Source: an uncultured Roseburia sp.
GTDB taxonomy: Bacteria > Bacillota > Clostridia > Lachnospirales > Lachnospiraceae
Reading direction: 5' to 3'
Length of the DNA: 35,552 bases
Assembly (NCBI GenBank): GCA_945787015.1
Contig: CALZGM010000030.1
Location: 1-35,552, forward strand
Within the stretch, counting starts at the first letter, position 1; every line of letters starts with the position of its first letter. Under the pieces are notes generated by a model, which saw only the letters and a program-made list of their open reading frames with translations, had not been told where the DNA came from and did no database searches. Both the position numbers and the translations under genes were made by a program. Shown piece after piece: positions 801-26,353 of the stretch.

Positions 801-2298
801 ATACCTGCCTCTCATTCTTTTTCAAATTTTTCTCAAGCTTACGCACTCCGGCAGATAAAATCATAACAATTACCAAGTACACAGCTGCGACCGTAATTAA
901 TGGCAGGAATGCCTGATAAGTGTTGCTTCGGATAATATTTCCTGCCATGGTCAAATCCTGTAAGCCAATATATCCGGAGATTGCAGTTTCCTTAATCAAA
1001 ACAATGAACTCGTTTGCCAAAGACGGCAATGTATTTTTAAAGGTCTGCGGCAAAATGATATAACGCATGGTCTGCGCATGCGTAAGTCCAAGACTTCTGG
1101 CTCCCTCAAACTGTCCCTGGTCCAAAGACATGATACCGCCACGCAAAATCTCTGCTACATAAGCACCGGAGTTAATTCCGAACGCCAATGCAGCCACTGC
1201 CACCTTGTTAATATTGGCAGATGCAAAAATAACATAATAAATAATTAAGAGCTGAATCATCGCCGGTGTACCACGAATAATCGTTAAATACACATGACAG
1301 ATTCCGTTTAAAAGTTTCATGCTGCCCGTCTTATCATGTGTCGCACGTACAATTGCTACACCGAATCCGATGATGACACCAAGCAGCACCGCAATCAATG
1401 AAATTAAAATGGTATTACCAAGGCCCTGCAATAAATATACATATCGGTTGTCTTCCAAAAAGCACTGATAGAAACTGTCCTTGATGGAGGCTGCAGCACT
1501 GCTGCTTCCGTTTCTAACGATAATCACCTGCTTTGAAGTAGTATAAGGATCCGAAAAATTAATATTCTTCAAACGGTCCTCGGTAATCGTCATACCTGCC
1601 ACACCGATATCTGCTTTTCCACCCTGTACAGCAGTAATGATGGAATCAAATTCCATGTCTTCAATTACCAGCTTTTTATTGAGCTTATCCGCAATGGCTC
1701 TTGCCATTTCTGCATCGATTCCCACAATACTGTTATCGGCATAATACTCATAGGGAGGAAATGCTGCATTTGTCGCCATCACCAATTCTCCGTTTGCATA
1801 AGTAAGGCCTTCCGGGCTTATGTACGCAAGACCGGTCACATCACCATCTGTAATATAGTGACTGATAATCGCATCTAAGGTGCCGTCAGCGCTAATCTCT
1901 GCCAGCGCCTTATTAATATCCTCTTCTAAGCTGTCATTCCCCTTCGCAATCACAATTGCATACTCTTCTAAGGTAAACTCCTCTTCTAAAATGCTTAAGT
2001 CACTATTACGCTTTATGTATTCTTTTGCCGGCTGCTCATCAATAATCACACAGTCGATTTTCCCGTTTTTCAAAGAAGATATCGCATCCGTTCCCTTGCT
2101 GTATCGCTCTACAACAGTCCCAGCTTCATCTCCTTCGTAATCACTGGCATAGGTGTCTCCCACCGTTCCAATCTGCACACCGATTTTTTTACCCTCTAAA
2201 TCATCTACACTTTTGATATCGGATGCCCCGGCCTTAGAGCCGCAGCCGGTAATCATCAGCACCAAAAGTGTAATCAATAGTCCTAACTTCTTTTTCAT
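793..2298 (-). CDS. Amino-acid ABC transporter, substrate-binding domain (circularly permuted) fused to permease
   Basis: This 501-residue lipoprotein/membrane fusion pairs with the GlnQ-like ATPase. A signal peptide ends in the lipobox ITGC (Cys19). Residues 28-150 match the second half of a family-3 binding protein ([13 protein letters not shown], then [11 protein letters not shown] and ADGTLDAII). Residues 170-262 match the first half ([33 protein letters not shown]). The two halves are therefore in swapped order. From about residue 285 a HisM/GlnP-type permease follows, with several membrane helices and an EAA loop ([20 protein letters not shown]). ATG at 2298 is chosen because GGAGAA precedes it and the lipoprotein signal starts there; a longer in-frame start at 2331 lacks this. 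It begins one base after the GH42 stop codon. Substrate is unknown. Confidence 0.9.
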
Positions 2299-2299
2299 T

Positions 2300-4342
2300 C
2301 TATTCTCCAATCTGTTTTTCCACCACTGCAACTGCTCCCGGTGCCATTACAAGTTCACCATCCAGGCCCTGTCCTGACAACAATTCCGTTCCATTTACAT
2401 TGGTTAAATACTGTTCTTCTGTCGTATAGTTCAGATAAAATTCATATGTTTTATCCTCTGCGACACGTACATGGTATTCTACACCGGCCAGTTCCTTTGT
2501 TTTTACACCGGCTTCTGACAGTATCTGTGTAAAAAGCGCCCGCATGTCAGATGCTTCCACTCTGCATGCAAAATAGTATGCATAACCCTTTCCATACTGT
2601 TTACAGGTAACCGCTGCACCACCTGCATAAAAATCACTTTCATAAGTAGCCAGCACGGTTGCATCCTTCACCCGGAGTATCTCTGCATAATCCTTTACCT
2701 CAGTACGAATTCTTGCACCATTTTTCCAAATGAGTCCATTTTGGTCTGTAGGATAAAGGGTATCTAATTCTTCACTAATTATGCCAAATACCTCGTTAAG
2801 TCCCTGTCCCGGGAATCCGCCCAGATTGCAAAGTTGGTCTTTATCCACATAGCCGGTTAAATAGGTAGCAAATACGATACCGCCATTTGCCACATACTCT
2901 TTCAGTTTTTCCGCAGTACCATCCTGTAGCAAATACATCATCGGTGCAAAAATCACCTTATATTTGCTCCAGTCATGCTGCTGCGAAATGATATCCGCAT
3001 CCACACCCAGTTTCAAAAGCTCGCTCCAGATATCCACACAGGTCTTGTCATAATTCTTGGTAGACTGCGCCATTCCCCTCATATCATCAATTGCCCAACG
3101 GGTATCCCAATCATACACCAATGCAACAGGTGTATCGACAACACTGCCCGCTACATCGGAGACTTTTTTCAACAGTTCACCAACCTCTGCTACTTCTCTA
3201 AAGATTCTGGTATCATCTGTTCCTAAATGGTCTACGACTGCTCCATGATATTGTTCAGAAGAGCCACGACCCTTTCTCCACTGGAAATACTGTACGGTAT
3301 CTGAACCGCAAGCCAGTGCCTGGAAACAAGCCAGTTTATGATTCCCCGGTCGTCTCACTTTATTAAAAGGCTGCCAGTTTACCAATCCCGGTGCACTTTC
3401 CATCAGCATAAACGGCTGCCCCGGTTTCATGGAACGCATCAAAGCATGATTAAATGCATTATATAAATAAGTATATTCCGGTGCTTCGTAATCATTATGG
3501 AATACCGGATAGCTATCCCATGAAATCACATCCAGTTCTTTACACATCTCATGGTAATCCAAGCCATAGTAAAGTGTCATGAAATTCGTCGTTACCGGAA
3601 TGTCAGGACGTACTGCCTTCAACGTGTGAATCTCATGCTTCATGAAATCTGTCATATTCCATGTCGTAAAACGCTTCCATTCCAAGTTTAAGCCCATAAC
3701 ACTGTTCTCACCGTTTTCATATGGCGGCTCAATCTGGTCAAAGCTATTAAAGCGGTGGCTCCAGAAGGTCGTCCACCATGCTTTATTCAATTTCTCAATA
3801 TCATGCTCAAATTTATTTGCGAGGTATTTACGGAAACGGCACACACACTGGTCACAGTAACATTCACCACCAAATTCATTGGAAATATGCCACATTAAAA
3901 GTCCCGGATGATTTGCGAATTCTTCTGCCAGCTTTCTATCAATGATTTCCACTTTTTCGCGATATTTTGTAGAACTCATGCAATGATTATGGCGCACCCC
4001 GTGGTGATTTCGCACTCCATAGGCATCCACACGCATCGCTTCCGAATATTTTTCATCCAACCACGCAGGTCTCGCTCCGGAGGGAGTTGCCAAAATCGTA
4101 TAGATTCCATTTTCATAAAGGCGATCCATAATCTTTCTAAGCCAGGAAAAATCAAACTTGCCTTCTTCCGGTTCATACATCGACCATGCAAACACGCCTA
4201 AGGTTGCTTCATTGATTCCCGCCTTTTTCATCATTTCAATATCTTTTTCTAAAATATCCGGGCGGTCCAACCACTGCTCCGGGTTATAATCTCCACCATG
4301 CATAATTCCATTTAATTTTGGAAAAAGTGTGTTTCTCTTCAT
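2300..4342 (-). CDS. GH42 beta-galactosidase
   Basis: This 680-residue enzyme hydrolyses terminal beta-galactosides in the cytoplasm; no signal peptide is present. The start HGGDYNPEQW is typical of family GH42. The acid/base glutamate is E156 in HISNEFGGE and the nucleophile is E315 in FMLMESAPG. Cys121, Cys161, Cys163 and Cys166 form the zinc-site pattern found in many GH42 enzymes. The barrel (about 1-390) is followed by the trimerisation and small beta domains, and the length is normal for the family. AAGGAG lies 10 bases before the ATG. Its stop codon is one base from the next gene, so the galactosidase and an amino-acid importer are co-transcribed, an uncommon pairing. The natural substrate could be a galacto-oligosaccharide or arabinogalactan fragment rather than lactose. 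Confidence 0.93.
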   Translation of the reverse strand: MKRNTLFPKLNGIMHGGDYNPEQWLDRPDILEKDIEMMKKAGINEATLGVFAWSMYEPEEGKFDFSWLRKIMDRLYENGIYTILATPSGARPAWLDEKYSEAMRVDAYGVRNHHGVRHNHCMSSTKYREKVEIIDRKLAEEFANHPGLLMWHISNEFGGECYCDQCVCRFRKYLANKFEHDIEKLNKAWWTTFWSHRFNSFDQIEPPYENGENSVMGLNLEWKRFTTWNMTDFMKHEIHTLKAVRPDIPVTTNFMTLYYGLDYHEMCKELDVISWDSYPVFHNDYEAPEYTYLYNAFNHALMRSMKPGQPFMLMESAPGLVNWQPFNKVRRPGNHKLACFQALACGSDTVQYFQWRKGRGSSEQYHGAVVDHLGTDDTRIFREVAEVGELLKKVSDVAGSVVDTPVALVYDWDTRWAIDDMRGMAQSTKNYDKTCVDIWSELLKLGVDADIISQQHDWSKYKVIFAPMMYLLQDGTAEKLKEYVANGGIVFATYLTGYVDKDQLCNLGGFPGQGLNEVFGIISEELDTLYPTDQNGLIWKNGARIRTEVKDYAEILRVKDATVLATYESDFYAGGAAVTCKQYGKGYAYYFACRVEASDMRALFTQILSEAGVKTKELAGVEYHVRVAEDKTYEFYLNYTTEEQYLTNVNGTELLSGQGLDGELVMAPGAVAVVEKQIGE

Positions 4343-6413: not shown

Positions 6414-7808
6414 TTAGTAGCTTAAATCCGGATATTTTTCTGTAACTGCTTTATAGAAAATATCTAATGCTTCATCTAAAGTTGCATTTCCTTCAAAGTA
6501 GTTCTTCATTGCTTTTTGGAATTCCTCATTACATCCCTGATCATATGCAGAAAGGTTACTTAAATCTATCTTTCCGGCACCTGCACAGTACATAGCAAGT
6601 GGATTCTGGCCGCCTAAAACCTTGCTTGAGTAGCTTGTATCTGCTGCCATAGCTTCCATAGCCGGTTTATTGTTTACGAAGTCATCATCCTGAACTACGA
6701 TTTCTTTCATGATAGATTCATCAGTTGTTAATTTCAACATGATATCTTTAATCGTTTCTACGTTATCGGTACCTGTTGCTGCACAAATCCATGTACCACC
6801 CCAGAAGAAGCCCTGTGGACCTTCTGTTGCTGCCCAGCCACCATTGTAACCAATAGAACCTTCAACATCTGCTGCCATACTGAAATTAATGAACCAAGCC
6901 GGTCCAAAGTAGCAGAATACTTTTCCGTCCGGATAGAAGCCTGCGCTCCAGTCATCACTCCAAAGATCTGCTGTTCCTGTCATTTTACCATCTACTAATT
7001 TCTTAGAGTCTTCTACCCATTTCATAATGTTATCATCAATTACAACTTTTCCATCAACAACCCACTTAGAAGATACATTGTTAGAATAGGTTCTGTAAGT
7101 ATCGTTTACAGTAGCTGTCATATAATATCCGGCTGCTTTCATTGTTTCAGCTGTTTTATTAAAGGTATCCCAGTCAGAAAGGTATTTCTGAACTTCTGCA
7201 GGATCATCTGTTCCAAGAACTTCTTTTGCCACTTCACGGTTATAGAACAATGCGCCCGGGCAGCCCTGCCATGAAAGGCCCTTTAATACGCCGTTAGAAT
7301 CTGTAACAACATCCTTCGTATACTGAAACTGATTTGCTAAATCTGCATCTGTGATGCCTAAATCAGAAACTGCCATTGTATATGGAGTATCAACATATTT
7401 TAATGCGTAGTCAGCTTCTACTAAGAAGATATCAATTTTATCATCTGCAGCTGCTGAATCCTGTTTTAATAAAGTTTCATCTAAGTTGTTCTGATATGCA
7501 TTATCTTTATTTGGAGTAATATTCCATACAACATCGATATCACCAATTTTACCATGAGTAGCATCTACCTCAGAATATCCTGGGTAGTGAGCGGTTACAC
7601 GTGATTTGAATTCTTCGTTCCAGCAATAAATATTTAAAACTTTTCCTTCTTCAGCAGTTGCTGCAACTTCTTCCTGTTTCTCTGCTGATGTTGTTGATGG
7701 TGCCTGTGAGTCGCCACTGGTCTGTGTGCCACTTCCGCCACCACAACCTGCAAACATAGTAACTACCATTGTTAATGCTAACAATGAACTTAATAATTTT
7801 TTCCTCAT
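6414..7808 (-). CDS. Carbohydrate ABC transporter substrate-binding lipoprotein
   Basis: This 464-residue protein is the extracellular receptor of the CUT1 importer. A signal peptide ends in the lipobox FAGC, followed by a low-complexity Ser/Thr/Gly linker. The mature part starts with KVLNIYCWNEEF, a typical first strand of family-1 sugar-binding proteins. It is rich in tryptophan and tyrosine (WAATEGPQGFFWGGTW), as expected for stacking against sugar rings. GGGAGG precedes the ATG. It is the first gene after the LacI regulator and is divergent from cellobiose phosphorylase, so cellobiose or cello-oligosaccharides are the likely ligand. The ligand is inference; the family is clear. Confidence 0.92.
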   Translation of the reverse strand: MRKKLLSSLLALTMVVTMFAGCGGGSGTQTSGDSQAPSTTSAEKQEEVAATAEEGKVLNIYCWNEEFKSRVTAHYPGYSEVDATHGKIGDIDVVWNITPNKDNAYQNNLDETLLKQDSAAADDKIDIFLVEADYALKYVDTPYTMAVSDLGITDADLANQFQYTKDVVTDSNGVLKGLSWQGCPGALFYNREVAKEVLGTDDPAEVQKYLSDWDTFNKTAETMKAAGYYMTATVNDTYRTYSNNVSSKWVVDGKVVIDDNIMKWVEDSKKLVDGKMTGTADLWSDDWSAGFYPDGKVFCYFGPAWFINFSMAADVEGSIGYNGGWAATEGPQGFFWGGTWICAATGTDNVETIKDIMLKLTTDESIMKEIVVQDDDFVNNKPAMEAMAADTSYSSKVLGGQNPLAMYCAGAGKIDLSNLSAYDQGCNEEFQKAMKNYFEGNATLDEALDIFYKAVTEKYPDLSY

Positions 7809-19288: not shown

Positions 19289-20308
19289 CTACCTACCCTG
19301 TTCCGCTATAATATTTGCCCAGCTTTTCAAAATTTCTTCCCGATGCGTTCCTGCCCATTCCACATCATAATTCAGCACTTTAAGGCTTTCGTCCCCCGTT
19401 TGCTGTAAGTTTTCCAATACAGACCTCCTGTGAAGCCGGTCTACTGCCAGTTGCTGCACATCATCCCCAACAATAAATTCAATAAACTGCTTTGCATTTT
19501 CTTCGTGTTTTGTTCCTATCACAATCGCACATCCGTCCGGCACGGTACTCGTACCGTCTTTTGGATATACAATTGAAATATCTGCGCCATTGTCGATGGC
19601 CTTTAGTGCAGTTTCCTCTAAAGTAAGTCCAATTGCCTTAGCACCACTTGACACCTCATCGACTGCCTCTTTTGAGCCGGCAGATACCTTATATTCCAAT
19701 GCCCTTGCAAATTGTTTCAAAGTCACATCCTCTTCCATCCCCATGGCCTGAATCAAGGTTACCAGCATGGTATAACTGCTTCCGGATTTCAATGGATCAC
19801 CAAAGGCAATGTTTCCCTGCCAGGACTGATAAAACAGTTCCTGCCAGCCTGTCGGAGCCCGTCCGCTGTCTACCAGTTTATTGTTATAGATAAACACAAT
19901 CGGCAGTTCCGTAAATGCCGTATAGCTTCCGTCTTTACTGCGGTACTGCTTTTTAATGCTATTGTTTCTGCTACACACATAAGGTTTGAAATAGTCGCTA
20001 TAAGCACAATAACTCTCGATTCCTCCTCCAAACATGATATCGCAGGTAAATTCTCCGTTTCCTTTCGCGATCTCTTCCAAAAGCTCGGATGTACCGCCGG
20101 TATGCAATTCCACCCAAATGCCGGTTCTCTCCTCAAACTCCTTAATAATAGGTTCATATACTTCTTCCTTGTGGGAAGTGTAAACCACAAGCTTGTTTTC
20201 TTCCACCACCGGCGTAATCACTTCCTGCGTCGTTTTACAAGACGAAAAAAGGATTCCCATACCCAAGCATATCGTTATTACTTTGCACTTTTCCCAAAAT
20301 ACCTTCAT
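19289..20308 (-). CDS. Extracellular solute-binding lipoprotein, probable accessory sensor (HptA-like)
   Basis: The 339-residue protein starts MKVFWEKCKVITICLG and has a lipobox LFSSC. The mature part (LVVYTSHKEEVYEPIIKEFEERTG) is the first lobe of an FbpA/AfuA/HptA-type binding protein, and the rest matches that fold in length. A TTG codon at 20353 would extend the frame, but a TATAAT overlaps that extension, so ATG at 20308 is preferred despite a modest GGGGA ribosome site. It is followed after 5 bases by the kinase gene and has no permease beside it. A second binding protein belongs to the transporter, so this one is most likely the ligand sensor for the kinase. Confidence 0.85.
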   Translation of the reverse strand: MKVFWEKCKVITICLGMGILFSSCKTTQEVITPVVEENKLVVYTSHKEEVYEPIIKEFEERTGIWVELHTGGTSELLEEIAKGNGEFTCDIMFGGGIESYCAYSDYFKPYVCSRNNSIKKQYRSKDGSYTAFTELPIVFIYNNKLVDSGRAPTGWQELFYQSWQGNIAFGDPLKSGSSYTMLVTLIQAMGMEEDVTLKQFARALEYKVSAGSKEAVDEVSSGAKAIGLTLEETALKAIDNGADISIVYPKDGTSTVPDGCAIVIGTKHEENAKQFIEFIVGDDVQQLAVDRLHRRSVLENLQQTGDESLKVLNYDVEWAGTHREEILKSWANIIAEQGR

Positions 20309-20341
20309 GACTGTTCCCCATTTCAAATCATCTTGAATAAA

Positions 20342-20347
20342 ATTATA
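20342..20347 (-). promoter_or_regulatory. Extended -10 promoter of the sensor/kinase/regulator operon
   Basis: On the minus strand TGTTATAAT gives a perfect -10 hexamer with an upstream TG, which can work without a good -35; the hexamer at the right distance (GTGAGC) is poor. Transcription would start near 20335, about 27 bases before the chosen start codon of the lipoprotein sensor. Confidence 0.5.
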
Positions 20348-20366
20348 ACACAAATTGATATTTAGC

Positions 20367-20655
20367 TCACTAAATTATTTCCATAATGTAGTTGCACAAT
20401 AAGAAAGAGTATCCCTTATTTTTAGATACGATCATACATGTATAAGAAACTCTAATCATTCCTATATACAAATTATCAAAAACTGACGCGCCGCATCGTA
20501 GCGGAGTCCATTCCGCACGATACTAATTATGACATCCTGCCATAATTGCGCTGACTTTGTAATAGGAATGAAGAGTTTCTAATACATTCCAAAACGCATT
20601 TAAAAACAAGGGATACTCTTTCTTATTGCAATCTACGTTATGAAAATAATTTTGG
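20367..20655. repeat. ~290-bp imperfect inverted-repeat element (MITE-like or structured RNA)
   Basis: This gene-free stretch folds almost end to end. The outer arms (AAATTATTTCCATAATGTAG near 20372 and its near-complement near 20631-20652) continue into a perfect 20-bp core at 20398-20417, complementary to 20608-20627. Then come further paired blocks, including AGAAACTCT and TCATTCCTAT with small differences on the other arm. The centre holds two hairpins: ATCGT-GCGGA around 20494-20521 and ATTATG/CATAAT around 20527-20547. One arm is repeated at 1-53. No transposase is present. It resembles a miniature inverted-repeat element; differences between arms at paired positions also allow a selected RNA structure. 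Confidence 0.75.
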
Positions 20656-20719
20656 AATCTAAATATCAGCTTTGAAGGCTTCGAAAATTTCGAAAGAACC
20701 TTTCAATTTACCACTATTT

Positions 20720-20974
20720 TCATTCGTCACGCACACTTGTCCCAACTATTCTTATAAGATAGAACTCCTTCCACAAACTCCATATTCCAACCGCTCCAAA
20801 CAATGCCAACACAATCATATCCATACACGGTCCCTCTGGCCAATAAAACAATTCCTCAATGTTCCTTGCAGTCTGATATTTCGTCTGTTCATGCAAAACA
20901 CAAAATACGATTAACAGCACCTTAGGAATCCAATACAATGGTCTTTTTATGTTTTCGACAAACTTCTTAATCAT
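20720..20974 (-). CDS. Small two-helix membrane protein, unknown function
   Basis: I do not recognise this 84-residue product. It has a basic N-terminus (MIKKFVENIKRP), a hydrophobic stretch at about 13-29 and a second at about 51-72 (MIVLALFGAVGIWSLW), so two membrane helices are likely. AGGAG lies 7 bases before the ATG, which supports translation. It follows the HNH-protein gene after about 120 bases on the same strand and lies between the accessory operon and the inverted-repeat element. A hairpin rich in TTCGAA (20678-20704) follows its stop codon but lacks a clear T-run. It may be a last member of the operon or an independent gene. Confidence 0.6.
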   Translation of the reverse strand: MIKKFVENIKRPLYWIPKVLLIVFCVLHEQTKYQTARNIEELFYWPEGPCMDMIVLALFGAVGIWSLWKEFYLIRIVGTSVRDE

Positions 20975-21093
20975 GGCAATTCTCCTATACTCTCCATAAT
21001 TTCTTCTGCGAAAAATTTCTTACCCTTATTTTACCGCACAAGTGGTTATCTTGCATGAAATCTGGTTATTTTATTGCGAAAAGTTTTTATTCC

Positions 21094-22971
21094 TCACCGT
21101 TGGACACCTATAAACTTCAACCAATCAGATTCAAAATCTATATTCATGTTAAACATTTGATTAATTATTTCTAAGTCATCTCTAGCTGAATAAGTTTTCA
21201 TATCATATTCTTCAAGTCTATTATATATTGCTAAACTTTCTTTTCTAGCATTTTCAATTATCTCATCGATTTCAGCATACGCAACATTAGTTGATACTTC
21301 ATACATTCTTATTGTTTCATCTCTTGCATCAGCAAAAAGTTCTCTAATCTTCGACATTTTGAATCCTTGACGAACGCCAAACAAATCTGCCTTCTTTAAA
21401 ATAAGCATCGTAAAGTTAGTACAAATAACAGTTGTTAAAATCTGTAGAGGTCCAAAAATAATATCATCAAATGGTTCTGGTATCTTTAATGCGTCACCTC
21501 CTAGCTCAAATAGTATTTCAATAACGCAACTTGTAATCGTAACTGCATACAAATTCACAACAGAATCTGCCTTTTCTGCTCTTGAAGAATTTGGATTTGC
21601 AATAATTCTAACTGCATCCACTGTTGAAAGCACTAGATTTTTTGCCATTTTAAGAAGTTTCTTAACTGTTGCCTTAACCATATTTATTAAAATATCCATA
21701 AATGACTTTACAAACTTCTTTAAACTATTAAATGCAATATTAACAAAAATGTCTTTAAGCTTCGATACAACATAATCTGTAACACGCTTCATTGCATCTG
21801 TTAGTTTTTCAAGAGCATTTTCTATGGTTATATCCTTCTTTAGAATAATTGTTTTTACTTCATATACTATAGGAGGAGCTGCATAATAAATAACCTGACC
21901 AGCAATAATTTTACCGATAGAGGCTTTCGTGTAATCTAATGCATCTGAGCCTACCTGCTTATAATCTGTATTCTTTAGTATAATTGTGCTTTCAACATTT
22001 TGAGAATGTTTTATATTTCGTACCAGTTCTTTTCTAACTGACTTGGGCACTTTACCATTCTCATCCAAATATCCTTTTTCCTTCAATTTTTTTATTTTAT
22101 CTTGATTACCACCTTTACGTTTCTCATTAATATATTCCCATTGAGCGCATACTGCATCCGCTAACTGCTCAGGTGTTGCTCGATCTGTAATATCAGTTGA
22201 TGCATCATATTCCTTATTTCTAGCATTGACGTACTTGACTTTTCCATCAACCTTACATACTCTAATATCACTTTTTGAAGCATTTGCTGACTTGTGCATC
22301 ATTTGCATATTATCTGGTGAATTCCAAAAAACTCGTAACTCTTCCGCTCCAGCATCTGTAATATATCTTGCATTATATTTTGCTGACTTTCTAGCTTGGA
22401 TATGATCTGCCTCAACATCTGGTTTTTCATACGGTTTTCCATTTCTCCATACTGTTTTCTTTTCCGCTTTTACCCCTGTCAATTCATCAAAGAGATCACC
22501 ATTTTCATCTTTTTGACTTTCCCTATATGCTTTTTTCCCGTTCCGGTCTAATTTATCTTTATCTCTATCAATTTCAAAAAGCTGAGTAGAAGCTTTTTCC
22601 ATTGTTTTGGTAATTGCATCTAGTTCTGCGGAGTTATGCTCATTGTAGTTATAAACTGTTTTGGTAATATCTCCCCATCCACCATTTTTCGCCAAGGGAT
22701 CATAATCTTCTTCATATGAAAATTTAAGGATTCTTGTAGCAAGCTGATCAACCGTAATATTATAGTTAGCTGTATCAAAACAATTTCTAACTATTTCCCC
22801 CGCCAAATCTCTTCCACAATTCTGTACAAATTCTGTTCCTAGATCATCTGTAAGAACTACATTAGTCTGTTCATTTAACTGCCTCAGAATATTCATGTAT
22901 TTGGTATCTTGATATTCTTCCATTGCACATCTTATTTTTATCGCATCTTTTAAACTATATGATTCATTCAT
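21094..22971 (-). CDS. HNH-nuclease-like protein with C-terminal membrane-active region
   Basis: No named family is recognised for this 625-residue protein. A non-zinc HNH pattern is visible: D189-H190 in VEADHIQARK, N221 in SPDNMQMM, and N230/K233 in KSANASKSD, the usual spacing of a beta-beta-alpha metal nuclease. Residues about 380-460 are a long lysine-rich amphipathic helical stretch. They are followed by hydrophobic segments (about 470-490 and 505-527) and a helical tail. ATG at 22971 is preferred, with AAGGTG upstream; an in-frame ATG at 23016 lacks a ribosome site. It is the last large gene of the riboswitch-led operon. Nuclease plus membrane segments suggest an effector (toxin or phage-abortive protein), which is inference. 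Confidence 0.72.
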   Translation of the reverse strand: MNESYSLKDAIKIRCAMEEYQDTKYMNILRQLNEQTNVVLTDDLGTEFVQNCGRDLAGEIVRNCFDTANYNITVDQLATRILKFSYEEDYDPLAKNGGWGDITKTVYNYNEHNSAELDAITKTMEKASTQLFEIDRDKDKLDRNGKKAYRESQKDENGDLFDELTGVKAEKKTVWRNGKPYEKPDVEADHIQARKSAKYNARYITDAGAEELRVFWNSPDNMQMMHKSANASKSDIRVCKVDGKVKYVNARNKEYDASTDITDRATPEQLADAVCAQWEYINEKRKGGNQDKIKKLKEKGYLDENGKVPKSVRKELVRNIKHSQNVESTIILKNTDYKQVGSDALDYTKASIGKIIAGQVIYYAAPPIVYEVKTIILKKDITIENALEKLTDAMKRVTDYVVSKLKDIFVNIAFNSLKKFVKSFMDILINMVKATVKKLLKMAKNLVLSTVDAVRIIANPNSSRAEKADSVVNLYAVTITSCVIEILFELGGDALKIPEPFDDIIFGPLQILTTVICTNFTMLILKKADLFGVRQGFKMSKIRELFADARDETIRMYEVSTNVAYAEIDEIIENARKESLAIYNRLEEYDMKTYSARDDLEIINQMFNMNIDFESDWLKFIGVQR

Positions 22972-23025
22972 ATTTTCACCTTTTCGCCCTCTACTTGTGA
23001 TTATTATAGGTTGCACAGAAATACA

Positions 23026-24252
23026 TTAAGCTGATTTGGTAGGTATAGTAATTACATCACCCCTATGAATCTCATTACGGGTAATTCCTTTTAAGAGAAT
23101 TCCAACTTCTTCACCATCATGACCTATTTCAATTAACTCTCTATTGCGCTCTATTCCCTCAACTTTGCATTCCATATAGACATCATCATTCCCAATAATA
23201 ACTATGGTATCGTTACATTTTATTTCACCAGATACCCTTCCTGTTACAACAGTACCTCTCCCAGTGATAGTAAATACATCCTCTACTCTCATCCAAAAAA
23301 TGTATTCTTCCCGATTTATATCATCTGTATTTTCTACTTCATTACTTTCATCATCTTTAAAGGGCATATCAAAATCCATATGAAATTTTTCATTTCTATT
23401 TATAGTACTTACTAAATCTATATTAGCTATGCAATCTTCCATACTATTTATCTTCTGCTGAAAATCTGCCATTTCTTGGTTAGAAATTACTCCATCAGCC
23501 ATAATATCTGTAAGAACTGTTTCTTGAAAAAAGACAGTACTTATTTCGTAAAAATCAAAGGCATTTTTAACGAACTGATAATGCTTATCATATTTTGTGT
23601 CTTTAAATTCTATTATTGGACACGGTTTTATATTTTCAAATGTTGCTTCATCTATAATTCTTTCATTAATTGAATCCGCATACATAAACGCCCTTATAAA
23701 ATCCATTTCTGGTATTATTTTTATTCGTATTGCATCTCTAACAGTAACTACTATATTTCTATAAATTTCCGCTATCTGAACAGCACTTCTAACTTCATTG
23801 AAATATCTTTCTTTTCGCATTAAATCTGCTAAATATTTATCTTTCTGACTTTCCAAATCCAGCTCGAACTTTTCAATCATTTTTTTGTTATCATTATGCT
23901 TTCTAATATGAGCCAAAAGACTATCCTCAAGATATCTATGCTCATAGTAATATGGATTATGTAATTCTAATACCTCAGGAGTATACTCCCTTGAAGTTGC
24001 TTCTTCCATTTTAAAATCAAAGATAGTAATTTTTCTATCTAATGATCCACCTATTTCCTTTAAGAAATCGTATAATTCTCTTATTTGATCTCTAAGATCA
24101 ATTCTCTCCTTATTAATCAAACTAATATGCTGATTATATTTATTACACTGCTCCGAGATTCTACCATTCCAGATTTCAGCATTTTCTCGATATTTCTCAT
24201 ATGATGCAGCATTTTCTTGCTTAAGTTCTTCGTATTTATCTTTATTTGACAT
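23026..24252 (-). CDS. Coiled-coil protein with C-terminal EF-Tu domain II
   Basis: The first ~190 of 408 residues are charged and strongly helical (coiled-coil-like). Residues about 316-405 closely resemble domain II of elongation factor Tu: FWMRVEDVFTITGRGTVVTG, then EVGILLKGITRNEIHRGDV. There is no GTPase domain anywhere in the gene, so it is not a translation factor. In EF-Tu this barrel contacts the aminoacyl-tRNA 3' end and the ribosome, so it might mimic or sense EF-Tu or bind tRNA. AAGGAGG lies 6 bases before the ATG. It lies 12 bases after the membrane-protein gene and 54 bases before the HNH gene. Function unknown; an adaptor or inhibitor of the HNH effector is one possibility. Confidence 0.75.
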   Translation of the reverse strand: MSNKDKYEELKQENAASYEKYRENAEIWNGRISEQCNKYNQHISLINKERIDLRDQIRELYDFLKEIGGSLDRKITIFDFKMEEATSREYTPEVLELHNPYYYEHRYLEDSLLAHIRKHNDNKKMIEKFELDLESQKDKYLADLMRKERYFNEVRSAVQIAEIYRNIVVTVRDAIRIKIIPEMDFIRAFMYADSINERIIDEATFENIKPCPIIEFKDTKYDKHYQFVKNAFDFYEISTVFFQETVLTDIMADGVISNQEMADFQQKINSMEDCIANIDLVSTINRNEKFHMDFDMPFKDDESNEVENTDDINREEYIFWMRVEDVFTITGRGTVVTGRVSGEIKCNDTIVIIGNDDVYMECKVEGIERNRELIEIGHDGEEVGILLKGITRNEIHRGDVITIPTKSA

Positions 24253-24264
24253 GGAGCGTCCTCC

Positions 24265-24786
24265 TTATTCATATTTACAAATAGTTCCATTGTTTACCCT
24301 TGCTTCACAAATGGAACGACCATTTGAAATAAATTCATACTCACTTTTTGATGAAATAATTACCTTTGCTTTGCCGTCCTCATTATACTCAATAGTTGCC
24401 TTTCCTATGGGTAATCTAATACTTTTCACTTTCTCATCATATTCTGTCTTTTCATTAATAATTTTTTCTTCATGTATAGTAGGTTCAACTTCTGCACTTT
24501 TGCTTATAACTCCATTTTTTTCATTAAGTAGATTACCATAAGTTCCTAGAATCAATGCTGTGTGAATAATACTAGCAAAATATAAAACTGTAGCTAAAAT
24601 AACTAATACATCCGATTCAATTATTAAGAAAACCCATTCTAGGGCAATATATGCAATTCCAAATATTGTCCATCTCTTTGTTTTGGTCCTAGCGCCAGCT
24701 ACAATAAGTCCCAGTCCATTTAATGAAACGATTAAGCTTAAAACAATAATTAATATCTTACTTCCTATATAAGATTTTTTCTTCAT
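24265..24786 (-). CDS. Membrane protein, unknown function (accessory operon)
   Basis: This 173-residue protein is not recognised. Two to three hydrophobic helices occupy about residues 8-32, 40-56 and 58-82. A charged linker (about 88-118) and a soluble C-terminal beta-rich domain with EYNEDGKAKVIISSKSEYEF follow. AAAGGAG lies before the ATG. The gene is 19 bases after the WYL regulator gene and 12 bases before the EF-Tu-domain gene, so it belongs to the same transcript. It may anchor the system to the membrane or act as an immunity component; nothing in the sequence decides this. Confidence 0.7.
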   Translation of the reverse strand: MKKKSYIGSKILIIVLSLIVSLNGLGLIVAGARTKTKRWTIFGIAYIALEWVFLIIESDVLVILATVLYFASIIHTALILGTYGNLLNEKNGVISKSAEVEPTIHEEKIINEKTEYDEKVKSIRLPIGKATIEYNEDGKAKVIISSKSEYEFISNGRSICEARVNNGTICKYE

Positions 24787-24805
24787 GGCGACTTTTCTCC
24801 TTTAT

Positions 24806-25780
24806 TTAAATTAGTTTTATATTTTCCCCTTGGCTTCTTAACCACATATCAATTCCATCACCAAATACCTCTGCTGAAATTGTATATATAGTTCTTTTGC
24901 CATCATCATGCGGTTCTTCTCCAATAATTTTTGCTGTTGGCAACTTATCCAATACTGCTTCTACTGAATATCCCAAATACTTAAACCTAACTTTACGAAG
25001 TTTACCCCCAAACATAAATTGGATTCTTTTTCGATATTCGCCTTCCTCAAATCGATTCATGTATTCAACATGGAATTTTTCATCTAAAATCTTGCAGTCT
25101 TGGATACGATCGATGCGATAAATTGTTGGGTTTGCATCATTAACCACACTGAAGTTTGCCTTCACTTTTTCATCCGTCTGCTCTGCTGCTAGATAAAAGT
25201 AATACTCAGAAAACATAATTGCCATTGGCTTAAGTTTTCTTGTCTTTACCTCTGAGCCCTGAATGCCTTGATATTTAATCTCTATGAATTTATGCTCATA
25301 GATTGCCCGCCCAATACTCCACATAGTATCTATAAATACCGATTTATGATGTGGCTCTATATAATGGAATTCTTCATTCATAATGAGTTCTTTTACAAGC
25401 TTCTGATTTTCTTCCGGAACACAACTTTCAATAAGTTTCTGAAGCATAGCGTCCATTTCCGATTTTGTAAAAGCTCTACTGTCAAGAAGTATTTTACAAA
25501 TTGCCAGTATCTCCGGATTTGTAAACTTAAGCTTATAAATCTGCTCTAGTTTATAACCTTTTGCTTGCCTATCGTAAATCACAGAATTAATGATTCCATC
25601 GTTCGCTCCTTGGAGATCCATGTAATTTCTTATATCGTCGATATCTCTCTGAATACTTCTCTCATTCACGCCATAATTGAAAGCTTCTGTTGTTTTGTTT
25701 ACAATGGAACCATTCATCAATTTCGTATAGATACCAAGGACTCTCTCTATTTTGTCAGTTCCCTCTTTTTCTAATGCCAT
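24806..25780 (-). CDS. WYL-domain transcriptional regulator
   Basis: The protein (324 residues from ATG 25780) has an N-terminal winged helix-turn-helix (ERVLGIYTKLMNG, VNERSIQRDIDDIRNYM). A central WYL domain follows (FIEIKYQG, KTRKLKPMAIMFSEYYFYLAAE, PTIYRIDRIQDCKIL), then the C-terminal extension. Known WYL regulators bind nucleic acid or nucleotide-like ligands, and several (BrxR, CapW) control anti-phage islands. Start choice is ambiguous: 25780 has an AGAGGG site and family-like start, while ATG 25849 forms an ATGA overlap with the preceding small gene but has no ribosome site. It is the second gene of the riboswitch-led operon and probably regulates it. Confidence 0.87.
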   Translation of the reverse strand: MALEKEGTDKIERVLGIYTKLMNGSIVNKTTEAFNYGVNERSIQRDIDDIRNYMDLQGANDGIINSVIYDRQAKGYKLEQIYKLKFTNPEILAICKILLDSRAFTKSEMDAMLQKLIESCVPEENQKLVKELIMNEEFHYIEPHHKSVFIDTMWSIGRAIYEHKFIEIKYQGIQGSEVKTRKLKPMAIMFSEYYFYLAAEQTDEKVKANFSVVNDANPTIYRIDRIQDCKILDEKFHVEYMNRFEEGEYRKRIQFMFGGKLRKVRFKYLGYSVEAVLDKLPTAKIIGEEPHDDGKRTIYTISAEVFGDGIDMWLRSQGENIKLI

Positions 25781-25845
25781 GTAGTCATCCCTCTTTTTAT
25801 CAATCTCTATAGAATAATGATACATTTTAACTTGGACACTTTCTG

Positions 25846-26043
25846 TCATTCAATCTTATTTTTTATATATTTTCCTGACTTAATTCTTTTGTCCTCCGGT
25901 TTTTCAGAATCAAACGGAATTACCCACATAGGTCCCATTTTGGTTGCACCTTCTATTCTTCCATCGGTGCACAAAATTCTTATTCGCCTCTCCGAAATGC
26001 CCCACTTTTCTGATGCTTCTTTTAATGTTATAAAATGATCCAT
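25846..26043 (-). CDS. Small helix-turn-helix DNA-binding protein (excisionase/MerR-like)
   Basis: This 65-residue protein is almost entirely one helix-turn-helix: ITLKEASEKWGISERRIRIL, followed by a wing-like CTDGRIEGATKMGPMWVIP and a basic tail. Such small proteins are common in Lachnospiraceae accessory regions. They may act as excisionase-type or autoregulatory DNA-binding proteins. TGAGG lies 8 bases before the ATG. It is the first gene after the riboswitch-terminator leader, and its stop codon overlaps a possible ATG of the WYL gene (ATGA). A role in controlling the island is likely; recombination is less likely, as no integrase is present. Confidence 0.8.
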   Translation of the reverse strand: MDHFITLKEASEKWGISERRIRILCTDGRIEGATKMGPMWVIPFDSEKPEDKRIKSGKYIKNKIE

Positions 26044-26063
26044 GCTAATACCTCATAAAAGCG

Positions 26064-26089
26064 AAAAAACACCATAGATGCCTATGATG
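26064..26089 (-). terminator. Riboswitch expression-platform terminator
   Basis: On the minus strand an 8-bp stem with one G-U pair (CATCATAG with CTATGGTG, loop GCAT, 26070-26089) is followed by six T residues (26064-26069). It ends about 20 bases before the first start codon of the accessory operon and behind that operon's own promoter, so it must act as a conditional attenuator. UAUGA in the 3' strand of the aptamer's P1 helix can pair with UCAUA of the terminator's 5' arm, a possible antiterminator. Confidence 0.72.
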
Positions 26090-26095
26090 TCGTTC

Positions 26096-26166
26096 ATAAA
26101 CTGCAACTGGCTACCATTTAAGGCCCTCTAGTTTTCCGTCACAACGTTTCCATTGTTTTGGCTTAT
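26096..26166 (-). promoter_or_regulatory. Cyclic-di-GMP-I (GEMM) riboswitch aptamer
   Basis: On the minus strand the leader reads GCCAAA, then a 6-bp hairpin capped by a GAAA tetraloop (ACAATG GAAA CGTTGT, 26141-26156). It continues GACGGAAAACTAGAGGGCC, TTAAATGGTAGCCAGTTGC and a closing strand GTTTAT that pairs with ATAAGC. This is the order of elements in class-I cyclic-di-GMP riboswitches: GNRA-capped P1b/P2, GACGCAAAGC-like joining strand, GGCCUAA and GUAGCCAG-UUGC. Deviations are GACGG for GACGC and GCCAAAAC for GGCAAACC. It lies between a consensus promoter and a terminator. Recognised by eye; a covariance-model search was not possible. Confidence 0.75.
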
Positions 26167-26179
26167 TCAACTGGTAAAT

Positions 26180-26208
26180 ATTATATACCCTCCGCGGAAT
26201 AATATCAA
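26180..26208 (-). promoter_or_regulatory. Consensus promoter of the riboswitch-led accessory operon
   Basis: On the minus strand TTGATA (26203-26208) and a perfect TATAAT (26180-26185) are 17 bp apart. Transcription would begin near 26173, giving a leader of about 130 bases before the small HTH gene. That leader holds the cyclic-di-GMP-type aptamer and the terminator. Confidence 0.82.
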
Positions 26209-26293
26209 CCGATTTATCAGACCAAAGTACCAAATCGTTTATATCAGATTGTTGATTCAAATGTCATTATCCCGTTAAATGATTCAAAAAGAA

Positions 26294-26333
26294 AAAAAGA
26301 AACCATCATCGAAAACGACACCGGTTTCTTTTT
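26294..26333 (-). terminator. Intrinsic terminator after the HD-GYP gene
   Basis: An 11-bp stem (AAAAAGAAACC at 26294-26304 with its complement at 26323-26333) is followed on the minus strand by a long T-rich tract. It lies about 20 bases after the HD-GYP stop codon and insulates that operon from the riboswitch-led operon. The 310-base gap 26044-26353 contains only this terminator, the promoter, the aptamer and the second terminator. Confidence 0.87.
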
Positions 26334-26353
26334 AAGAGTTATTATATTCTTTT

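Follow-up and report, generated by a model that had tools for sequence, protein, structure and literature searches.

A class-I cyclic-di-GMP riboswitch in front of a defence-type gene cassette in an uncultured Roseburia species: a probable OFF switch

A complete riboswitch aptamer of the cyclic-di-GMP-I family lies between a promoter and the first gene of a defence-type operon in an uncultured Roseburia sp. (GenBank assembly GCA_945787015.1, contig CALZGM010000030.1, positions 1 to 35,552; the whole of this 35,552-nucleotide stretch is called the window hereafter). The reading judged probable is that of a class-I switch placed on a horizontally acquired, defence-type cassette and working as a transcriptional OFF switch. 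At the sequence level, the argument draws on the aptamer with its promoter and terminator, on the variable island in which the cassette sits, on the recurrence of such leaders before related or comparable cargo, and on a promoter motif shared with other operons. Riboswitches for c-di-GMP are known for the control of motility, adhesion, and biofilm genes.

The Leader and Its Ligand Site

The leader is encoded on the minus strand. The promoter described in the initial annotation, TTGATA-17-TATAAT, is found at 26180..26208 (read from sequence), with the motif TTGATATTATTCC within its -35 region. It is followed by the aptamer (26099..26172), located upstream of a small helix-turn-helix (HTH) gene. 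The GAAA-capped hairpin, GACGGAAAAC, GGGCC, TTAA, and GTAGCCAGTTGC, from which the GEMM class I had been proposed, can all be read directly on this strand, and the assignment is upheld by a covariance model search: RF01051 matches the minus strand at 58.3 bits, above the gathering score of 35 (E 4.4e-9, model positions 1-87 of 87, Rfam). A score of this size within 35.5 kb excludes chance as the source of the match. An intrinsic terminator hairpin with a U-run, identified by sequence reading, occupies 26064..26090 (minus strand); 20 nt separate the end of the U-run from the ATG at 26043, which agrees with the distance of about 20 bases first given. Every element of the leader originally observed is present, and the observation is secure.

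Specificity can be considered from the Rfam alignment, in which model position 11 is a G in the window. We take this position to be 'G20', the residue marking specificity for c-di-GMP rather than cGAMP; the cGAMP-type variant of GEMM-I presumably has an A there, which the window lacks. The pair next to this position is C-G in the window versus G-C in the consensus, a double change by which the base pair is kept. From these residues, the window's aptamer would be expected to bind c-di-GMP. A drifting aptamer, or one whose ligand has changed (e.g., to cGAMP), would leave the cassette outside c-di-GMP control. The departure from the consensus next to the ligand site could be read that way, as could the A found at model position 11 in 21 of the 157 entries of the leader collection (one site being entered twice), including the leader of a TIR cassette (L065), and the aptamer that is merely a relic at one other cassette (L270). 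Nevertheless, with a G at position 11, a complete model match, and a compensated pair, such a change is considered very improbable in the window.

The match in the window is the only RF01051 match found in its own genome, where 150 of 198 candidates were scored. The same genome has 32 GGDEF matches, which indicates a c-di-GMP-rich host. A search of this genome for c-di-GMP-II riboswitches returned nothing, control genomes being equally without a match.

The Operon behind the Switch

The operon (HTH-WYL-membrane-EF-Tu-HNH) spans 21094-26043, with all genes on the minus strand. It begins with P0001 (25846..26043), an HTH protein of 65 aa whose HTH_59 match (3.3e-5) is below the curated cut-off, and continues with the WYL-domain regulator P0002 (24806..25849; PF13280, 4.6e-7). 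P0003 (24265..24786, 173 aa) has hydrophobic segments, by reading, and no family match. P0004 (23026..24252) is helical, with an EF-Tu domain 2 at its end (PF03144, 6.3e-11), and P0005 (21094..23016) is an HNH-type nuclease with a hydrophobic C-terminal half. The cargo first described as a WYL/EF-Tu-domain/HNH set is borne out by these matches, the HNH part by a weak profile match together with invariant residues: P0005 is matched by GH-E at 0.15 (Pfam) and by PDC-M40B at 7.8e-7 (PADLOC), and an alignment of five proteins, among them that of the window, shows its H205, N236, N245, and K248 to be invariant. As the relatives of P0005 begin near residue 21, its true start may be the ATG at 22971. 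Its AlphaFold model is poor (mean pLDDT 37.8).

The EF-Tu part of P0004 is particular to the window's copy, since three aligned relatives end before it. When P0004 is used as a query, the non-self matches listed correspond to this C-terminal part, so that the cassette is not traceable by P0004. Over the cassette as a whole, the PADLOC matches are limited to WYL models described as CRISPR-associated (best 3.6e-17) and to PDC-M40B.

A Variable Segment

Switch and operon are contained in a variable segment (20214..26350), in the place of which the close relative G417 has 172 bp. In this genome, a stretch of 2943 nt ending with the HD-GYP gene is 98% identical to the window; the match resumes (97.7%) within the solute-binding gene, and the two matching parts are separated by 172 bp, against 6.1 kb in the window. 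As nothing of 20214-26350 follows the HD-GYP gene in G417, the switch and the cassette vary, and are absent, together. The GC content of the cassette is 32.4%, against 41.6% and 41.5% in the flanks. Presence or absence at one site in close relatives and a foreign composition, both expected of mobile cargo, are thus found here, and the cassette looks acquired, judging from its low GC content and its absence at one site in a close relative. Among the six named proteins of the variable segment, no Pfam match to a recombinase was found.

Ownership of the switch by the neighbouring HD-GYP gene was also considered; it is disfavoured by G417, in which the HD-GYP gene is followed by the 172 bp, without switch or cassette.

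Other features of the site can be noted. The N-terminal part of the solute-binding protein (19289-20353) is unlike that of G417, the remainder of the gene being about 98% identical in DNA, which places the right edge of the variable segment inside this gene. Before it, and in the same segment, lies a TwoAYGGAY RNA (RF01731, 90.6 bits) at 20431-20594 (minus strand), a family to which, to our knowledge, no function has been assigned. An 84-aa ORF beside the cassette (20720-20974, minus strand) has no match in any other of the 60 genus genomes. In another genome, G454, about 24 kb of the window (2306-26350) are absent: the HD-GYP gene (protein 74% identical) is followed by sequence matching window positions 845-2305, so that the site varies on a larger scale too.

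Recurrence before Related Cargo

Matches to P0005 were found in three of 397 family genomes, namely its own, G302 (41%), and G162 (partial). A pattern-based scan of GTDB species gave relatives in Acetivibrio ethanolgignens and in a Lachnobacterium MAG (L071), and a further one, at 42.5%, is present on one Paenibacillus plasmid record, while none was found in phage records or IMG/VR. RF01051 is located just upstream of the P0005 relative in G302 (65.2 bits) and in the Lachnobacterium MAG (57.3 bits), and is absent from the Paenibacillus locus and from the partial G162 locus (Rfam). It is, therefore, carried by three of the five P0005 loci overall, and by all three full-length Lachnospiraceae copies found (window, A. 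ethanolgignens G302, and Lachnobacterium MAG). The initial annotation had put the cassette forward as one not known from any description; relatives of it were found, and their pairing with the switch recurs, which goes beyond that statement.

Two of these loci show further particulars. In the Lachnobacterium MAG, the HTH gene behind the switch (L071, 7525-7768) is broken by a stop, the later genes being open. On the Paenibacillus plasmid (NZ_CP145893.1, L072), relatives of the HNH gene and of its two upstream neighbours occur without RF01051, with a DUF6602 gene and a type III-B CRISPR module at a distance of about 2 kb.

RF01051 itself is widespread, occurring in at least 135 of the 397 family genomes and in 16 of the 60 genomes of the genus (stricter filters being used for both lists). 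Outside six cassette loci, the leader collection holds 151 entries, of which 115 have a readable ORF of at least 80 aa, 34 have none, and two are duplicates. The first gene was defined as the longest ORF behind the switch, a rule by which small HTH genes at L147 and L156 were overlooked. Among the 115 first genes, the commonest Pfam families are CAP (10), PAS_3 (7), GGDEF (6), PAS_9 (5), and SBP_bac_8 (5). All seven PADLOC families hit by these genes trace to three proteins of generic kinds, by reading an ABC-transporter ATPase, a TatD protein, and a PP2C-like protein; the locus of the ATPase (L147) is a switch-plus-HTH locus. Since the first genes mostly belong to other families, conflict cargo constitutes a minority use of the switch.

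Given that RF01051 is this common in the family, and usually precedes other genes, the switch could once have belonged to another gene, the cassette having landed behind it by accident. In G417, however, switch and cassette are absent together; all full-length Lachnospiraceae copies of P0005 found carry the switch; and related leaders precede other conflict cargo, as described below. An accidental landing is, on these grounds, regarded as extremely improbable, and a switch that belongs to the cassette is preferred.

Other Cargo behind Similar Switches

The conflict-cargo switch loci now known are the window, L060, L061, L063, L065, L071, and L292. Such counts are lower bounds, as only part of the RF01051 matches was read, and G038 and G297 were found via the HTH gene. 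Three of these loci are in the same genus as the window. In G449 (L060), the switch is followed by genes for an HTH protein and a Mokosh-like helicase (MkoA, 7.9e-109), then by genes encoding a PIN protein, a product of 376 aa, an AAA ATPase, and a protein of the radical-SAM type. In G451 (L063), it is followed by those for an HNH protein, a small protein, a coiled coil, and an AAA protein. In G408 (L065), the set is located behind an integrase and comprises the switch, an RHH-like protein, an SPFH/zinc ribbon protein, a membrane protein, and a TIR/SH3 protein, the RHH-like and membrane proteins being assigned by reading. The switch of this SPFH/TIR cassette (7328-7403) has an A at model position 11 and may prefer cGAMP over c-di-GMP, the meaning of the position being as assumed above.

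In another genus, G038 (L291, L292) has a switch (51.2 bits), an HTH gene, and a WYL gene, then an effector set like that of L063; HNH/coiled-coil/AAA cargo is, therefore, found behind the switch at two loci. The WYL protein of G038 is 64% identical to that of the window over 324 aa, and its AAA and HNH proteins are 59% and 31% identical, respectively, to those of L063. The combination of a window-type front and an L063-like back in G038 points to an exchange of cargo behind a related front end. The post-aptamer stretches of the window and L063 are mutual best matches among 155 leaders (29/32 nt), that of L065 being the next-best for both, with match scores among the highest 0.6% and about 1% of all pairs. 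A second Mokosh-like cassette, in G076 (L270), has a 40-nt relic of the 3' half of the aptamer upstream of its HTH gene. This relic, which has no Rfam match, is identical to L060 at 33 of 40 positions (score 45 versus a maximum of 32 in 500 shuffles).

Mobile-element records were also considered. A pattern scan turned up class-I switches in seven stretches of viral contigs (L223 and L226 being alike), none of them clearly before conflict cargo, as judged by ORF starts. Part of the leader is matched in four plasmid records, of which the three examined have other gene contexts; no phage record matches the leader.

A Promoter Motif Shared with HTH-Led Operons

HTH proteins like P0001 are found in 176 of 299 family genomes, and relatives of P0001 are the first gene of BREX, pAgo, type I RM, HerA, and Mokosh-like operons. 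The cargo scan covered nine proteins from five of the ten loci fetched (three of the nine having no hit at 1e-10), and identified a type I methyltransferase, HerA, BrxC with PglX, pAgo, and MkoA, with at least one match per locus. HTH-led loci are mostly without a riboswitch: RF01051 is present at three of the 30 closest (own, L241, and L242) and at one of 20 more distant ones (L291), and it is absent, at gathering score, from the HTH relatives in plasmid, phage, and IMG/VR records (L123-L126). The combination of switch and HTH gene also precedes an ABC transporter (G120) and, by reading, a gene for an ATPase-like protein close to the end of a contig (G004) and spoVT-like and other housekeeping genes (G297).

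The motif TTGA[ACT]nnn[AG]TTC[CG], followed after 10-15 nt by a -10-like element, precedes 18 of the 30 closest HTH loci, two of 20 more distant ones, and five of six switch-plus-HTH loci, and is found at none of 149 other riboswitch loci. Among random windows, it is hit in 10 of 5000 drawn from control loci and in 104 of 3000 drawn from the HTH loci themselves. The pattern was written after reading ten upstream regions; of the 20 closest loci unread by then, 11 match. At L232-L261, the spacer of the motif often resembles a TTCC/GGAA inverted repeat, a candidate operator.

A defence role of the cassette is suggested by these relatives of its HTH protein and by the kindred cargo. The switch might also work as proposed without the cassette serving immunity, if the latter were a module for element maintenance, conjugation control, or stress, which sessile cells would best keep silent. 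PADLOC has the HNH protein only as a weak candidate match, and the A. ethanolgignens copy (G302) lies directly behind a serine recombinase gene (Resolvase, 5.3e-36), both of which would fit such a module. Nevertheless, relatives of the leading HTH protein head BREX, pAgo, type I RM, and Mokosh-like operons, and switches of this kind also precede Mokosh-like and TIR cargo; a non-immune function is, thus, considered unlikely, and the defence-type reading is retained.

Direction of the Switch and Proposed Mechanism

Pairing of the P1 3' strand with the 5' arm of the terminator, from which an OFF switch had been deduced, is present in the structure predicted for the nascent RNA of the window. The strand, GUUUAUGA, forms with this arm a predicted antiterminator hairpin (26080..26101, minus strand), and forbidding the pairing raises the predicted energy from -19.4 to -14.8 kcal/mol. 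An equally strong duplex arises in 134 of 2000 shuffles, so that the pairing is suggestive only, and no common antiterminator was seen across five other leaders folded. While OFF is the natural prediction from such a pairing, the proposed direction, therefore, leans mainly on class precedent, class I switches in C. difficile being reported as OFF (PMC11477304).

Upon c-di-GMP binding, the aptamer would close and hold the P1 3' strand, thereby blocking the antiterminator; the terminator would then form, and the operon would not be transcribed. When c-di-GMP falls, in the motile state or through any depleting event, the antiterminator would form and RNA polymerase would read through. A second layer of control probably acts at the promoter, where the motif in the -35 region could be bound by the HTH or the WYL protein.

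Phage proteins can bind or cut cyclic dinucleotides, blunting CBASS. The leader may be pictured as a depletion alarm: the nuclease cassette would be silenced by attenuation at high c-di-GMP and read through once cyclic dinucleotides are reduced by an invader or the cell becomes motile, the cargo being swapped behind one front end (promoter motif, riboswitch, HTH, and sometimes WYL). This extension is a long shot; if true, immunity would have a reusable trigger in the loss of a second messenger, as sensed by a riboswitch. The recurrent front end, if confirmed, would by itself place defence-type mobile cassettes under c-di-GMP control, linking immunity to the motile or settled lifestyle. It would also provide a ligand-tunable defence operon, suggest how costly nuclease cassettes stay silent, and offer a search key, namely the genes behind class-I switches on mobile elements.

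Comparison with Known Systems

The aptamer class is known, but its recurrent role before defence-type cassettes was not found described in the literature searched. This literature, on c-di-GMP riboswitches with mobile elements, phage defence, and prophages, was mostly open-access and represented by titles and abstract openings, in which no description of such switch-cassettes was found. The nearest precedent found there comes from C. difficile prophages, in which antitoxin RNAs lie behind such switches (PMC7699646, PMC6563280): cdi1_4 and cdi1_5 precede the antitoxin RNAs RCd11 and RCd12, and c-di-GMP lowers read-through (PMC7699646). Both cases place a class-I switch before a conflict-type gene on a mobile element; the C. 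difficile gene encodes a non-coding antitoxin RNA and has a second, strong promoter, whereas the window has a protein operon.

The PADLOC candidate PDC-M40, a name not found in the literature searched, resembles the cassette in that its B model is matched by P0005 and by P0011 (5.2e-8). It differs in that the match is weak and partial, and no other part of the candidate is matched in the window.

Compared with RF01051 (GEMM class I) at large, the window has the complete aptamer, above gathering score, with promoter and terminator in the usual order. Unlike the first genes of the family, which are mostly CAP, PAS, GGDEF, and solute-binding genes, its cargo is a defence-type mobile cassette. The HTH-led defence operons of Lachnospiraceae (BREX, pAgo, type I RM, and Mokosh-like) share with the window a related small HTH gene in first place and the promoter motif, and differ from it in being mostly without the riboswitch that precedes the window's operon.
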